DNA of 46,934 nt from Fructobacillus fructosus KCTC 3544 (GTDB taxonomy: Bacteria > Bacillota > Bacilli > Lactobacillales > Lactobacillaceae). A program made the position numbers and the translations under genes. Numbering within the stretch: the stretch's first letter is position 1; the number at the start of each line of letters is the position of its first letter. A model generated the notes under the pieces. It ran no database searches. It saw nothing but the letters and a program-made list of their open reading frames with translations, and was not told the origin of the DNA. Positions 2,876 through 25,149 of the stretch are shown here, in pieces. The stretch is from the NCBI RefSeq assembly GCF_001438695.1, contig NZ_JQBH01000010.1, positions 3,074 through 50,007 on the forward strand. The letters run 5' to 3'.

Positions 2876-2879
2876 CCAA

Positions 2880-3233
2880 TGGACCCGAGGGGAGTCGAAC
2901 CCCTGTCCAAACCATCCGCCACGCTAGCGTCTACATTCATAGGGCAATCATTGTTACCGCAACCAAAGCAGCCATTGTCCAGAACTTGACTTTGGCTGGG
3001 ATCGAATTGATTTAAGTTACATCGCGCCGACATCGTCATGCAACCGAGCTAACCATTTATAAGAGTATACTCACCATGTTAGCCTAACGAGTATACCCAC
3101 GTGTCACTGGTTTTTAGGCAGCGACAGCGTAAGAGTTATTGTTTTTTGCAGTTAAATAGTCTGCCTGCTTAACGCCCAGATGGCGGAATGCAGCTAGCGC
3201 TCGTAATAGCCTGTCGAATTCCGGGACGAGCCC
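2880..3233 (-). ncRNA. ssrA: tmRNA (ssrA)
   Basis: Transfer-messenger RNA rescues stalled ribosomes and tags the stalled peptide. The 5' end GGGCTCG pairs with the 3' end CGGGTCC, forming the acceptor stem. A T-arm with GGTTCGACTCCCC-type sequence sits at the 3' end, and GGAATTCGACAGGC matches the conserved 5' region. The tag frame at 3114-3149 (minus) reads AKNNNSYAVAA and then TAA, starting at the usual GCA resume codon. CCA is not encoded. The gene follows the accA terminator, and its 3' end is the likely integration site of the DNA at 1-2880. Confidence 0.97.
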
Positions 3234-21775: not shown

Positions 21776-21804
21776 TTGACAAAGAATAGCCCCACCGTTA
21801 CACT
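21776..21804 (+). promoter_or_regulatory. promoter of the cystine-transport operon
   Basis: TTGACA (21776-21781) and TACACT (21799-21804) are separated by exactly 17 nt, a near-consensus promoter. Predicted start near 21811, about 20 nt before the leader peptide. Confidence 0.85.
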
Positions 21805-21829
21805 AAATACAGATTATAAGGAGGAACCT

Positions 21830-21904
21830 ATGAACGCGAACATTCGAAACTCACAACAAAACACGATGACTCAAACGGTTTGCTGTTGCGCACCGCTTTT
21901 TTAG
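21830..21904 (+). CDS. cysteine leader peptide (24 aa)
   Basis: Short ORF from ATG 21830 to TAG 21902-21904, with a strong ribosome site (AAGGAGG) at the right distance. It encodes 24 residues ending TVCCCAPLF; codons 18-20 are TGC TGT TGC (21881-21889). Cysteine is very rare in this genome (none in MetRS, 679 aa, or ValRS, 892 aa), so three in a row in a 24-residue peptide is striking. The stop codon lies inside the 5' strand of the antiterminator. I infer it senses Cys-tRNA supply; the peptide itself need have no function. Confidence 0.85.
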   Translation: MNANIRNSQQNTMTQTVCCCAPLF

Positions 21905-21970
21905 GGTGGCGTTTATAGGCTAAAAACCACCCTAGGGCGACATCTATCCTGCCCCGGGGTGGTTTTTTCT
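21901..21970 (+). promoter_or_regulatory. transcription attenuator: antiterminator / terminator
   Basis: Two mutually exclusive structures share AAAAACCACCC (21922-21932). Terminator: it pairs with GGGTGGTTTTT (21957-21967), 11 bp plus inner GGGC 21935-21938 / GCCC 21951-21954, followed by T. Antiterminator: TAGGGTGG (21902-21909) pairs with CCACCCTA (21927-21934), with an inner TTTA 21912-21915 / TAAA 21921-21924. A ribosome finishing at TAG would mask 21902-21909 and allow termination; one stalled at the Cys codons leaves it free, giving readthrough into the transporter genes. Confidence 0.85.
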
Positions 21971-21997: not shown

Positions 21998-22792
21998 ATG
22001 AACAAGAAAATTGCAATTATCATCGCTGGTCTCGTTATTATTATCGGTGCTGTGTTCGGCATTAGTAAGATGACCTCGTCTAGCAAGGACAACACAACCA
22101 TCAAGGCCGGCACCTTCACGGTCGGACTAGAAGGAACCTACGCCCCCTTTTCTTACCACGACGATAAGGGGCAATTAACCGGATTCGAAGTTGAAATTGC
22201 GCGCGCTTTGGCCAAGAAAATGGACATGAAAGTCAATTTTGTCCAATCAAAGTGGGATTCCCTTATCGCTGGCTTGAATGCTAAGCGTTACGATGCTGTC
22301 ATTAACAACATCGGAATCACCGATCAGCGCAAGGAAAACTACCGCATGTCAACTGCTTACCTCTATCCAAAGGCCGCTTTGATTCGTCGCACTGGTGATA
22401 CATCATTGAACAGCCTTTCGGATATTAACGGGAAGACAATGGCTCAGTCCGTCACATCCAACTATGGTAAGAAGGCGAAGGAAGAAGGCGCCAACATTAA
22501 GGCTGTTGCCGGCATTATTGAAGCGATGAACTTGATTACAACCAACCGTGCCGATGGTTCGTTGAACGATATGGGCGCCTTTGAAAACTGGAAGCAGTCG
22601 AATCCTGATGCAGACGTTGAAGCCGTCGACATTTCAAAGCAAATGGGCTCCACTCCCGATGGTGTCTTGATGAACAAGGATAGCAAGAAGCTGCAAGAAA
22701 AGGTCAACAAGGCACTCAAGGAACTGCGTGAAGACGGAACCTTGACCAAGTTATCAAAGAAGTACTTCAACAAGGACCTAACCAAAGAATAA
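21998..22792 (+). CDS. amino-acid (probably cystine) ABC transporter substrate-binding protein
   Basis: 264 aa. Uncleaved-looking N-terminal hydrophobic segment (about 4-24, IAIIIAGLVIIIGAVFGI), then a periplasmic-binding-protein family 3 domain: FTVGLEGTYAPFSYHDDKGQLTGFEVEIARALA, AGLNAKRYDAVINNIGIT, INGKTMAQSVTSNYGK, and a terminal LTKLSKKYFNKD. The GLEGTYAPF region resembles cystine-binding FliY/TcyA. There is no lipobox cysteine; the protein is Cys-free, so it is probably held by its N-terminal helix. First structural gene behind the Cys attenuator, which supports cystine or cysteine as substrate. Confidence 0.88.
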   Translation: MNKKIAIIIAGLVIIIGAVFGISKMTSSSKDNTTIKAGTFTVGLEGTYAPFSYHDDKGQLTGFEVEIARALAKKMDMKVNFVQSKWDSLIAGLNAKRYDAVINNIGITDQRKENYRMSTAYLYPKAALIRRTGDTSLNSLSDINGKTMAQSVTSNYGKKAKEEGANIKAVAGIIEAMNLITTNRADGSLNDMGAFENWKQSNPDADVEAVDISKQMGSTPDGVLMNKDSKKLQEKVNKALKELREDGTLTKLSKKYFNKDLTKE

Positions 22793-22823: not shown

Positions 22824-23522
22824 ATGATAGACTTTTTTAATCTGGCAGTTCAATATCTGCCCGAGCTCTTTCTCACAGCGCTCAAATACACACTCCCACT
22901 CACAGCCATCTCCTTCTTTTTCGGGTTGATTTTTGCCTCGCTAACGGCACTGGTTCGAGTGGCTAAGCTACCTCAAAACGAGTGGGCAGCCGCCCTGCTC
23001 CAAATCGTTAAGTGGATTGCCAATGCATATGTTTGGTTCTTCCGGTCAACGCCACTGATTGTTCAACTTTTCATCGTCTTCTACGGCTTGCCAAACGCAC
23101 ACATCGCCCTCTTCCAGTCTGCCTGGGTTTCGGCTATCACGGTTTTCTCACTGAACACCGGCGCCTATGCATCAGAGACGATTCGTGCATCGATTTCCTC
23201 CGTTCCAGAAGTTCAAAAGCAAGCAGCGGAATCGTTGGGGATGACCCGCGCACAAGTTTACCTTTACGTGGTTTTGCCACAGGCTGCCCGAATCTCTATT
23301 CCACCGCTTTCCAATTCACTAATTGGTCTGCTGAAGGACACCTCATTGGCTTCCGTCATTACCATTGTGGAAATCTTCTATTTGTCGCAACAAATCGCGG
23401 CAGCAAACTATAAGGTTCTGTCAATGTACATTCTGGTCGCCATGGTTTACGCCTTCTTCACATCAATTCTTTCAATTGGTCAGCACTACCTAGAAAAGTA
23501 CACATCGAGGTTTGCCCAATGA
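22824..23522 (+). CDS. amino-acid ABC transporter permease (cystine type)
   Basis: 232 aa, HisM/TcyB-type permease with about five membrane helices. The EAA loop that contacts the ATPase reads QAAESLGMTRAQVYLYVVLPQA (about 133-154). FFRSTPLIVQLFIVFYGLP is typical of polar amino-acid permeases. One permease only, so it presumably works as a homodimer. It overlaps the ATPase gene by 4 nt (ATGA). No cysteine. Confidence 0.92.
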   Translation: MIDFFNLAVQYLPELFLTALKYTLPLTAISFFFGLIFASLTALVRVAKLPQNEWAAALLQIVKWIANAYVWFFRSTPLIVQLFIVFYGLPNAHIALFQSAWVSAITVFSLNTGAYASETIRASISSVPEVQKQAAESLGMTRAQVYLYVVLPQAARISIPPLSNSLIGLLKDTSLASVITIVEIFYLSQQIAAANYKVLSMYILVAMVYAFFTSILSIGQHYLEKYTSRFAQ

Positions 23523-24253
23523 TTCAAGTTAAAAATCTCAGTAAACACTATCCCGACAAGGTCGCCTTGGAAGACATCAACCTGACTTTCCCGGCTGATC
23601 ACACAACAGCCATCGTGGGTCCATCGGGCTCTGGTAAGTCCACGCTACTACGTTCGCTTAATTTATTGGATCGCCCAGATACTGGTACACTGCAAATTGA
23701 CCAATTAATCTTGGATTTGGCCAAACCATTAACGAACGGCCAAATTTTACAAATTCGTCAAAAGACGGCCATGGTCTTCCAGGAAAAGGCGCTCTTTACC
23801 CACCTCACGGTGCTAAAAAACCTGACGGAAGGTCCCATTAAGGTCCAGAAGAAAAGTAAGGAAGAGGCCGAATCGTCCGCCAAAGAACTATTAAAGCAGT
23901 TTAACATGACGGAACTAGCTAATCGCTATCCTTACCAACTTTCCGGGGGTCAACAACAGCGTGTGGCTATTCTACGCGCCCTAGCCATGTCCCCTAAGTA
24001 TCTACTGTTGGACGAACCAACGTCGGCCCTCGATCCAGAGTTGGAGGCACAAGTGCTTCGGGTACTGAAGGAATTAGCGAAAAAAGAAGTCTCCATGGTC
24101 ATTGTCACCCATAACATGTCCTTTGCAGAACAAGTAGCTGACCAAGTGGTCTTTATTGACGATGGTCACGTTGGCTACGCTGGACCAACCGACGGCTTCT
24201 TCCATTCAAACGAGAAACGGATTAAGCAGTTCTTGGGAGCAATGTCTTTCTAA
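23519..24253 (+). CDS. amino-acid ABC transporter ATPase (cystine type)
   Basis: 244 aa. Walker A GPSGSGKST (34-42), Q-loop VFQEKALF, signature LSGGQQQRVAILRA, Walker B YLLLDEPTSALD, H-loop VTHNM. Belongs to the GlnQ/TcyC polar amino-acid importer group. Third gene of the Cys-regulated operon; it overlaps the permease by 4 nt and the nuclease by 1 nt. No cysteine. Confidence 0.94.
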   Translation: MIQVKNLSKHYPDKVALEDINLTFPADHTTAIVGPSGSGKSTLLRSLNLLDRPDTGTLQIDQLILDLAKPLTNGQILQIRQKTAMVFQEKALFTHLTVLKNLTEGPIKVQKKSKEEAESSAKELLKQFNMTELANRYPYQLSGGQQQRVAILRALAMSPKYLLLDEPTSALDPELEAQVLRVLKELAKKEVSMVIVTHNMSFAEQVADQVVFIDDGHVGYAGPTDGFFHSNEKRIKQFLGAMSF

Positions 24254-25149
24254 TGGTTAAACGTCGCAAACAATCAAAAAAACGCTTCTCACAAACCGTC
24301 GCCATCGTTATCGCCATGGTGGCGGTTTTGTCCTACCAAGCGTTTCAAAAAGAAAAGACCGCTCCGAACAATAGCCAACAGCAGTCCAAGGTAATCAAGT
24401 CTGCCAAAAACTCAAAGCACTCCGCGACAGTCCAAAGTGGTGAACAGGGCAACCAGGATCTCTTAGCCATCCAGTGGGATGGCACCCTTGATGGTGACAT
24501 TGTTCACCTCAATGGTAACAAGGCCACTTTCACCGCCACTGAACTAGCACAGACTTTCCCAGCTGACGGATCTAAATTAAATCCCGTCAACGGATTAGCG
24601 CTTTCACCACTCGATTCATTGGGGCGTTCCGGCCAAGGCAACTTCATCGCTTCGAAAGCATCCATGGATCAGGTTACCAAGCGCCCTTCCCAAATACCAA
24701 AGTCAGTCCGACCATCTGGTTGGAATCAAAATGATTATTTTAACGGGACGTCTTGGGTCGGCGGTACCCATCATAACCCCCAGGTCACGCTTGGTGGCAG
24801 CAAACAGGCTCTCTGGAATAAATCGCATATTGTCGGTTATCAATTCTTTGGAATGCCCACGATGGTAACTGAAAATATGACGACAGGGACACGCGTGGAA
24901 AACGCCTTCCCGGGACAGCTTGTACCAGAGGATGACATCCGCTACGCAATCAAGCAACATCCAAACATCACCATCCGCGGTCAGGTGACACCGATTTATT
25001 CTGGTAACGAGCTTGTTCCTCGTGGTGTCCACTACATGGCCAAATCTGTCCAGGACAATGGTGCTTCGCTTGATTTTAATTACTGGATATTTAACGTTCA
25101 GCCTGGTGTGACGATCGATTACAGCACCGGCGCGTCAACCATTCAATAA
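24253..25149 (+). CDS. secreted DNA/RNA non-specific endonuclease
   Basis: 298 aa. Basic N-terminus (VKRRKQSKKRF) and membrane segment (about 14-30), a Lys/Ser/Gln-rich linker, then an EndA/NucA-like beta-beta-alpha-metal nuclease domain. The active-site His is probably in NKSHIVGYQFFG, and the metal Asn in TGTRVENAF, which matches the TGTR..N pattern of lactobacillal enzymes; the usual DRGH is KSH. Likely surface-anchored, degrading extracellular DNA. Its ATG shares a base with the ATPase stop, so it is translationally coupled and should fall under the Cys attenuator. No cysteine. Confidence 0.82.
   Translation: MVKRRKQSKKRFSQTVAIVIAMVAVLSYQAFQKEKTAPNNSQQQSKVIKSAKNSKHSATVQSGEQGNQDLLAIQWDGTLDGDIVHLNGNKATFTATELAQTFPADGSKLNPVNGLALSPLDSLGRSGQGNFIASKASMDQVTKRPSQIPKSVRPSGWNQNDYFNGTSWVGGTHHNPQVTLGGSKQALWNKSHIVGYQFFGMPTMVTENMTTGTRVENAFPGQLVPEDDIRYAIKQHPNITIRGQVTPIYSGNELVPRGVHYMAKSVQDNGASLDFNYWIFNVQPGVTIDYSTGASTIQ

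Follow-up and report, generated by a model that had tools for sequence, protein, structure and literature searches.

A candidate cysteine-codon leader-peptide attenuator preceding a cystine-type ABC importer operon in Fructobacillus

The transcript leader of an amino-acid ABC importer operon in Fructobacillus fructosus KCTC 3544 is probably a transcription attenuator of the ribosome-mediated type, with charged tRNA-Cys as its signal and a cystine-type importer as its target, a reading to which, from the sequence and its relatives, we assign a probability of about 0.8. The parts of the attenuator are present, are conserved in related genomes, and pair in a partner-specific manner. They are located in the window, i.e. 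the whole stretch of 46,934 nucleotides analysed, itself part of a 1.48-Mb genome in 45 contigs, as follows (window coordinates, strand, feature, with the evidence in parentheses).

21776-21804, + strand: sigma-70-type promoter, TTGACA-17-TACACT (consensus scan; upstream regions of relatives)
21818-21824, + strand: Shine-Dalgarno sequence of the leader ORF, AAGGAGG (sequence)
21827-21837, + strand: leader ribosome-site strand CCTATGAACGC, able to pair with 21909-21919 (fold; helix tests)
21830-21904, + strand: leader ORF, 24 codons plus TAG, peptide MNANIRNSQQNTMTQTVCCCAPLF (sequence; relatives)
21876-21902, + strand: T1, possible hairpin over the Cys codons, CGGU..ACCG (sequence; folds of relatives)
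21881-21889, + strand: control codons TGC TGT TGC (sequence; at least one Cys codon in 29/29 orthologous loci)
21902-21909, + strand: antiterminator 5′ strand TAGGGTGG, starting with the leader stop codon (duplex tests)
21909-21919, + strand: antiterminator-loop strand GCGTTTATAGG, complementary to the leader start site (fold; helix tests)
21923-21968, + strand: T2, intrinsic terminator, 11-bp stem plus inner 5-bp stem and six U (fold; both-sided changes in relatives)
21927-21934, + strand: antiterminator 3′ strand CCACCCTA, overlapping the terminator 5′ arm (duplex tests)
21998-22792, + strand: amino-acid ABC transporter substrate-binding protein, SBP (best NCBIfam relative a cystine-binding family, below cut-off)
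22824-23522, + strand: ABC permease (best NCBIfam relative a cystine permease, below cut-off)
23519-24253, + strand: ABC ATP-binding protein (best NCBIfam relative TcyN, below cut-off)

An earlier note on this DNA had proposed a near-consensus promoter, a ribosome site, a 24-codon ORF carrying TGC TGT TGC, a leader stop codon within the antiterminator 5′ strand, two mutually exclusive hairpins, and an 11-bp terminator, and the layout agrees with it in these respects. TTGACA (21776-21781) and TACACT (21799-21804), separated by a 17-nt spacer, match the consensus at 10 of 12 positions; AAGGAGG at 21818-21824 precedes the ATG at 21830, the Cys codons occupy 21881-21889, and the stop codon TAG (21902-21904) opens the strand TAGGGTGG (21902-21909). 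The latter is complementary to CCACCCTA (21927-21934), which overlaps the 5′ arm of T2, making the two hairpins exclusive. In the fold T2 has a stem of 11 pairs with an inner stem of five, and its U-run is 21963-21968; T1 is followed by C and six U, these encoding the end of the peptide. Neither the hairpin over the Cys codons nor pairing of the ribosome site was mentioned in the earlier note. The short ORF has its own ribosome site and shows signs of a kept reading frame, and its translation is predicted; the control codons are placed such that a stalled ribosome would free the antiterminator strand, cystine handling being assigned by best family match only. The intrinsic terminator is accompanied by an exclusive antiterminator with partner-specific change, antiterminator support being weak in genera g16 and g56.

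How these parts would act in time we infer as follows. RNA polymerase would leave the promoter and a ribosome would start on the leader. With enough Cys-tRNA, the ribosome would reach the stop codon at 21902 and cover TAGGGTGG, leaving CCACCC free, so that T2 would form and transcription would end near 21968. With little Cys-tRNA, the ribosome would wait on the Cys codons, still 5-7 codons short of the stop, and the exposed TAGGGTGG would pair with CCACCCTA, so blocking T2 and allowing the importer genes to be transcribed. In the least certain step, when there is no ribosome on the leader, its ribosome site would pair with the antiterminator region and so make termination more likely.

Conservation speaks more strongly for these elements than do the single-sequence controls described below. 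The six closest relatives by protein in a collection of named genomes are all Fructobacillus, i.e. F. papyrifericola (G008), F. parabroussonetiae (G010), F. papyriferae (G003), F. sp. CRL 2054 (G007), F. broussonetiae (G004), and F. durionis (G009). The orthologous SBP gene is present in all 13 Fructobacillus genomes, and in the aligned upstream regions a Cys-codon leader lies 5′ of the transporter gene in each. The −10 element is kept as TACACT or TAAACT in 13/13, and the −35 TTGACA in all 12 stretches that reach that far (the G010 stretch being too short). Seven of the 13 leaders carry VCCC followed by APLF, TPLI, or PPLF; five have Cys at one conserved site, V-[KM]-C-[YQT]-L-P-[LF]-F, with a second Cys earlier in the leader in one of them (G005). 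G011 (locus L032) has a divergent leader, MFVSQSATTCC, followed directly by a strong hairpin and U-run, i.e. similar parts in another order. An RNA model, R1, made from 12 Fructobacillus sequences, matched those 12 only, with one copy in each, among 397 family genomes.

In folds of the five single-Cys Fructobacillus leaders, the Cys codon is in or beside the loop of a strong hairpin, e.g. CGGTAAT..ATTACCG, which is followed by a U-run encoding the last residues of the peptide. T1 in the CCC group is weaker; it appears when G008 and G010 are folded but not in the minimum-energy fold of the window. As modelled, T1 is likely a pause hairpin or a first terminator.

The manner in which the CCC-type leaders vary is informative with respect to the role of the ORF. 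Their length is 75 nt in 7/7, and their pairwise differences are spread over codon positions 1, 2, and 3 as 140, 138, and 138, with 36 synonymous and 202 nonsynonymous codon differences; within the Cys run, the residue is invariant and one third position varies. Such even drift around a fixed Cys run is what would be expected of a reading frame free to change apart from its control codons. Cys accounts for 43 of 12,838 codons, and CC is absent, in a mechanically chosen set of 41 long ORFs of the window, so that, at this usage, Cys is expected in ~7% of 20-codon ORFs. Among 14 short ATG ORFs of the window with a Shine-Dalgarno-like site, CC is found in two and CCC in the leader ORF only.

The Cys leader extends beyond the genus. 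Of 301 family genomes searched with the protein, 31 had a match at E ≤ 1e-65, comprising the 13 Fructobacillus, 11 others at at least 50% identity, and seven at 44-48%. The 11 have a Cys-codon leader, after which most show a conserved stretch, CCGG..CCGGTATTTTGACG, ahead of a terminator; in the 44-48% group (G013, G030, G065, G075, G138, G207, and G217), no Shine-Dalgarno-led Cys leader was seen beside a terminator. Upstream of the 48%-identical SBP gene of G217, an incomplete genome, a long hairpin with a U-run overlaps a short Cys-free ORF (L046) and is perhaps another type of attenuator. Searches in two genera and with a further RNA model, R2, added G326, G327, G396, G371, and G344; other R2 matches, at G326 C2:76863 and in G380 and G061, were judged on reading to be chance terminators. 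A Cys-codon leader is present in 16/16 of the further genomes with an SBP at least 50% identical and in 29/29 of all such genomes, these being related rather than independent; a leader ORF was counted in the 29 loci when it had a Shine-Dalgarno sequence at the homologous place, and the ORF listings covered Cys-containing ORFs only.

Among the 29, CCC occurs in seven leaders, CC in one, and one or two Cys codons in the others. Of the poly-Cys leader proposed in the earlier note, the Cys codon is thus kept throughout but the run is not, and a single Cys codon appears to be enough in most relatives. The residues around it differ in other genera, e.g. YCSNRR, VCLTPGAC, ACDTRRSY, and ICETWLL, Cys being common to all. 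Homologs that keep the hairpins without the Cys codons or ORF, which according to the earlier note would speak against this reading, were not found, all 29 keeping a leader ORF with Cys. A Cys codon is placed 5-7 codons ahead of the stop in 23 of the 28 leaders measured, and 9-18 ahead in the remaining five. These 28 comprise 27 loci with a clear terminator plus that of G144; G011, for its different layout, and G275, in which a deletion shortens the terminator 5′ arm, were left out of the leader and helix tests. The deletion in G275 (L040) is relative to G143 and may weaken the switch.

The genus g18 offers several further arrangements. In G144 (L116:480-640), a Cys leader, MSQLMSSFIICLHLA, a hairpin, and a terminator lie 5′ of a permease-ATPase pair; the permease best matches a cystine permease and the ATPase is about equally close to arginine, glutamine, and cystine families, with no SBP gene within the 2.5 kb read. 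A second cystine-like SBP of this genus, 42-44% identical, is preceded in 6 of 12 aligned upstream regions, from 14 genomes (without G420 and G421), by a 7-codon leader ending Cys-stop (MSLGMRC, MNFRMRC, or MALGMRC; L123, L124, L125, L130, L133, and L134). In five of these six folds, the bases directly following the stop are paired with those immediately 5′ of the SBP Shine-Dalgarno sequence (GATG/CATC in three, GGTG/CACC in two), and no terminator was found by eye at these 7-codon leaders; as folded, the arrangement looks like a translational Cys attenuator. The leaders in L132 (G088) and L136 (G316) end GCCC-stop and MNRC-stop, respectively, and in G422, G418, G404, and G379 the second SBP is preceded by a longer ORF that contains at most one Cys.

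The pairings were compared with those of exchanged and shuffled partners. In a partner permutation with 14 representatives (ungapped sequences, 20,000 permutations each), the native mean energies were −20.6 for T2, −18.9 for the antiterminator, and −14.3 for the leader ribosome site with the antiterminator region, and for each of the three helices these were reached in 0/20,000 permutations, likewise with 10 representatives, shared ancestry and base composition remaining in the result. The four Fructobacillus alone are too few for this test, and the result with them was not significant (native energy reached in 3309, 798, and 1628 of 20,000 permutations for ribosome site, antiterminator, and T2, respectively). 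Compensatory change, which the earlier note had proposed seeking, is consistent with these results, in that the stem sequences change while their pairing is kept. For T2, both-sided changes are seen in the alignment pair counts, which are too low for G003 and G010 because in alignment A5 MAFFT misplaced both at the terminator by one base.

For 10 of the 12 Fructobacillus, <5% of shuffles equalled the duplex between the strand after the Cys codons and the terminator arm (0.4-13% across the 12; 1.0% of 1000 shuffles for the window), and in 12/12 the antiterminator 5′ strand starts no more than two bases from the stop codon. Outside Fructobacillus this held in 1 of 16 (G029), with values as high as 95.8% (G289) and 96.5% (G326); the antiterminator in other genera is a longer composite hairpin, and the test omits its inner helix. 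A two-halves test, which splits the composite hairpin and cuts through the antiterminator stem of the CCC group, gave <1% of shuffles in 5/5 g18 orthologs and 2/2 of g6, 3-31% in six g16, 15% in two g56, and 23% for G144.

Folding the RNA as it exists once polymerase has transcribed the terminator loop, with the ribosome leading edge assumed to be 13 nt past the first base of the A-site, gave mean probabilities for upstream pairing of the terminator 5′ arm of 0.62 with the ribosome at Cys, 0.20 with it at the stop, and 0.46 with none; the stalled value exceeded the stop value in 25 of 28 leaders (the exceptions being G143, G211, and G144). In these models the contrast is mostly generic, because shuffled upstream RNA gives means of 0.32-0.72, native RNA beating 95/100 shuffles in 3/28 only. 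For the window, the ensemble measure of antiterminator formation was matched by 13/100 shuffles; its 166-nt leader fold has z = −3.84, with 0/200 shuffles as good. Consensus scans of the window found three promoter-like sites against 1.1 in shuffles and one terminator-like site against 0.4. Overall, single-sequence folding tests lend the modelled mechanism only modest support.

In the predicted fold, CCTATGAACGC (21827-21837) can form 11 bp with GCGTTTATAGG (21909-21919) in the antiterminator loop. The helix was noticed in the window and then tested in 26 leaders over the stretch from −14 to +13 relative to the leader start, G326 and G327 being left out since the leader start was outside the stretch used. 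Its mean energy was −14.3 with native partners compared with −9.8 across groups, and it was as good in <5% of shuffles in 15 of the 26, i.e. in 6/7 CCC Fructobacillus, 0/5 single-Cys Fructobacillus, and 9/14 others. Foreign partners were about as good or better in the single-Cys Fructobacillus. The helix was absent from the predicted ensemble in G012, G005, and G118 and nearly absent in G073 and G105, and, without a ribosome, the terminator arm was still at least 0.7 paired upstream in 7/26, any upstream partner being counted. That the helix hinders the antiterminator when the leader is untranslated is the least certain part of the model. Reportedly, the ribosome site of the Escherichia coli trp leader can be masked by a distal segment.

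A wider reading, for which we put the odds a little short of even, is that these leaders form a Cys-sensing leader-peptide family in Fructobacillus and related genera, in several lineages of which the leader ribosome site serves as an anti-antiterminator, such that the switch would read both leader initiation and Cys-tRNA charging. The family may have originated, or been reassembled, several times in operons for cystine import, in transcriptional and, in g18, translational forms, where a T-box might be expected.

Other readings of the leader account for part of these observations. Conservation of the peptide end in 12 of 13 Fructobacillus, as V-x-C-x-x-P-[LF]-[FI], might be explained by an arrest peptide whose nascent chain, with CCCAPLF at its end, stalls the ribosome for some other signal, with Cys charging not being sensed. 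However, this part of the leader is also constrained by the RNA, through the hairpin stem and U-run, and the residues flanking Cys differ in other genera, with Cys alone being common, so that we consider an arrest peptide improbable. We regard as rather less probable still a ligand- or tRNA-binding leader RNA, i.e. a T-box or riboswitch, with an incidental ORF. Firmicutes often use T-boxes, and some portions of the RNA are strongly conserved in other genera; much of that conserved sequence can, however, be explained by the antiterminator and ribosome-site helices, and an incidental ORF is not expected to keep a Cys codon in 29/29. The T-box model does detect in this genome, with 25 matches at E ≤ 0.001, nine of them over the curated score, but none in the leader, and identity with a T-box or other Rfam leader RNA was rejected, there being no match at gathering score in the window leader or the 11 related loci scanned.

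The least probable reading, to which we give very little weight, is that T2 terminates or pauses transcription constitutively, the ORF encoding a small protein that contains Cys and has a function of its own. The ORF does have its own ribosome site, and its length is constant inside each Fructobacillus group, but its N-terminal part shows drift free of amino-acid constraint, a single Cys is present in most relatives, and the position of the stop shifts between lineages. The known motif uORFC-8-2 of Rhodobacterales cysS was also rejected as an identity, the downstream gene here being an ABC SBP gene and not cysS.

Returning to the attenuator sensing charged tRNA-Cys, the operon that it would control was described in the earlier note as encoding a cystine-type transporter. 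This is upheld insofar as the best NCBIfam relatives of the SBP, permease, and ATPase are all cystine systems, but none of the three matches a cystine family over its curated cut-off, and for that reason cystine is a putative substrate. The closest solved relative of the SBP is 2yln, which we take to be a cystine-binding protein. The gene upstream of the leader, by eye presumably that for methionyl-tRNA synthetase, is on the opposite strand, and T2 therefore does not serve it. Directly after the ATPase gene, an ORF at 24253-25149 (+ strand), with no NCBIfam match at E ≤ 0.001, has a motif that by eye we take to be that of a DNA/RNA endonuclease; it is possibly part of the importer operon. A tmRNA gene is located at 2877-3233 of the window (− strand).

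Cysteine synthase over the TIGR01136 cut-off was found in 0/13 Fructobacillus genomes, eight having weak matches only, compared with 11 of 14 control genomes. Given this, uptake of cystine or cysteine is likely to be needed for Fructobacillus growth, and from the genomes we infer auxotrophy; among the literature matches listed there was no Fructobacillus paper on cysteine auxotrophy. In hosts without a cysteine synthase over the cut-off, import of cystine or cysteine should be vital. If the attenuator reading is correct, leader-peptide attenuation for cysteine reaches the Lactobacillales, a group better known for T-boxes, and the 29 natural variants offer material for asking what minimum of control codons an attenuator requires and whether the switch is gated by base pairing between the leader ribosome site and the antiterminator region.

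The classical leader-peptide attenuators are those of the trp and his operons of Enterobacteria. The Fructobacillus-type leaders resemble these in having control codons in a short ORF, an exclusive antiterminator and terminator, and an operon for the same amino acid; they differ in that there is often a single control codon and in that several lineages appear to use the leader ribosome site as a strand competing for the antiterminator. Polycysteine ORFs of mycobacteria were reportedly described by Canestrari in 2020, a paper cited in PMC13236596. Among the full-text literature matches listed, a scope outside which most subscription papers fall, there was no Cys leader attenuator in Lactobacillales.

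Classical leader-peptide attenuation is outlined in PMC9413887, which also covers his operons with His leaders in the Bacillus cereus group and others and assigns T-boxes to histidine genes of Lactobacillales. Together with the hisS/hisZ leaders of bacilli (PMC2965389), these are likewise leader-peptide attenuators in Firmicutes, but with His codons and in other orders. The cys leader peptides of Actinobacteria are similar in having runs of Cys codons near the leader stop, whereas no conserved terminator was found for mycobacterial operons (PMC1262725), and the operons are cys and cbs rather than that of a cystine importer. The motif uORFC-8-2 (PMC8632094) is similar in that a first stem encloses the tandem Cys codons of a short ORF and an intrinsic terminator comes next; by contrast, it is found in Rhodobacterales, i.e. 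Alphaproteobacteria, 5′ of cysS, the gene for cysteinyl-tRNA synthetase. Overall, attenuators of this kind are known; the candidates here would be a variant in that they concern cysteine in Lactobacillales, often have one control codon, and in some lineages add a helix at the ribosome site.
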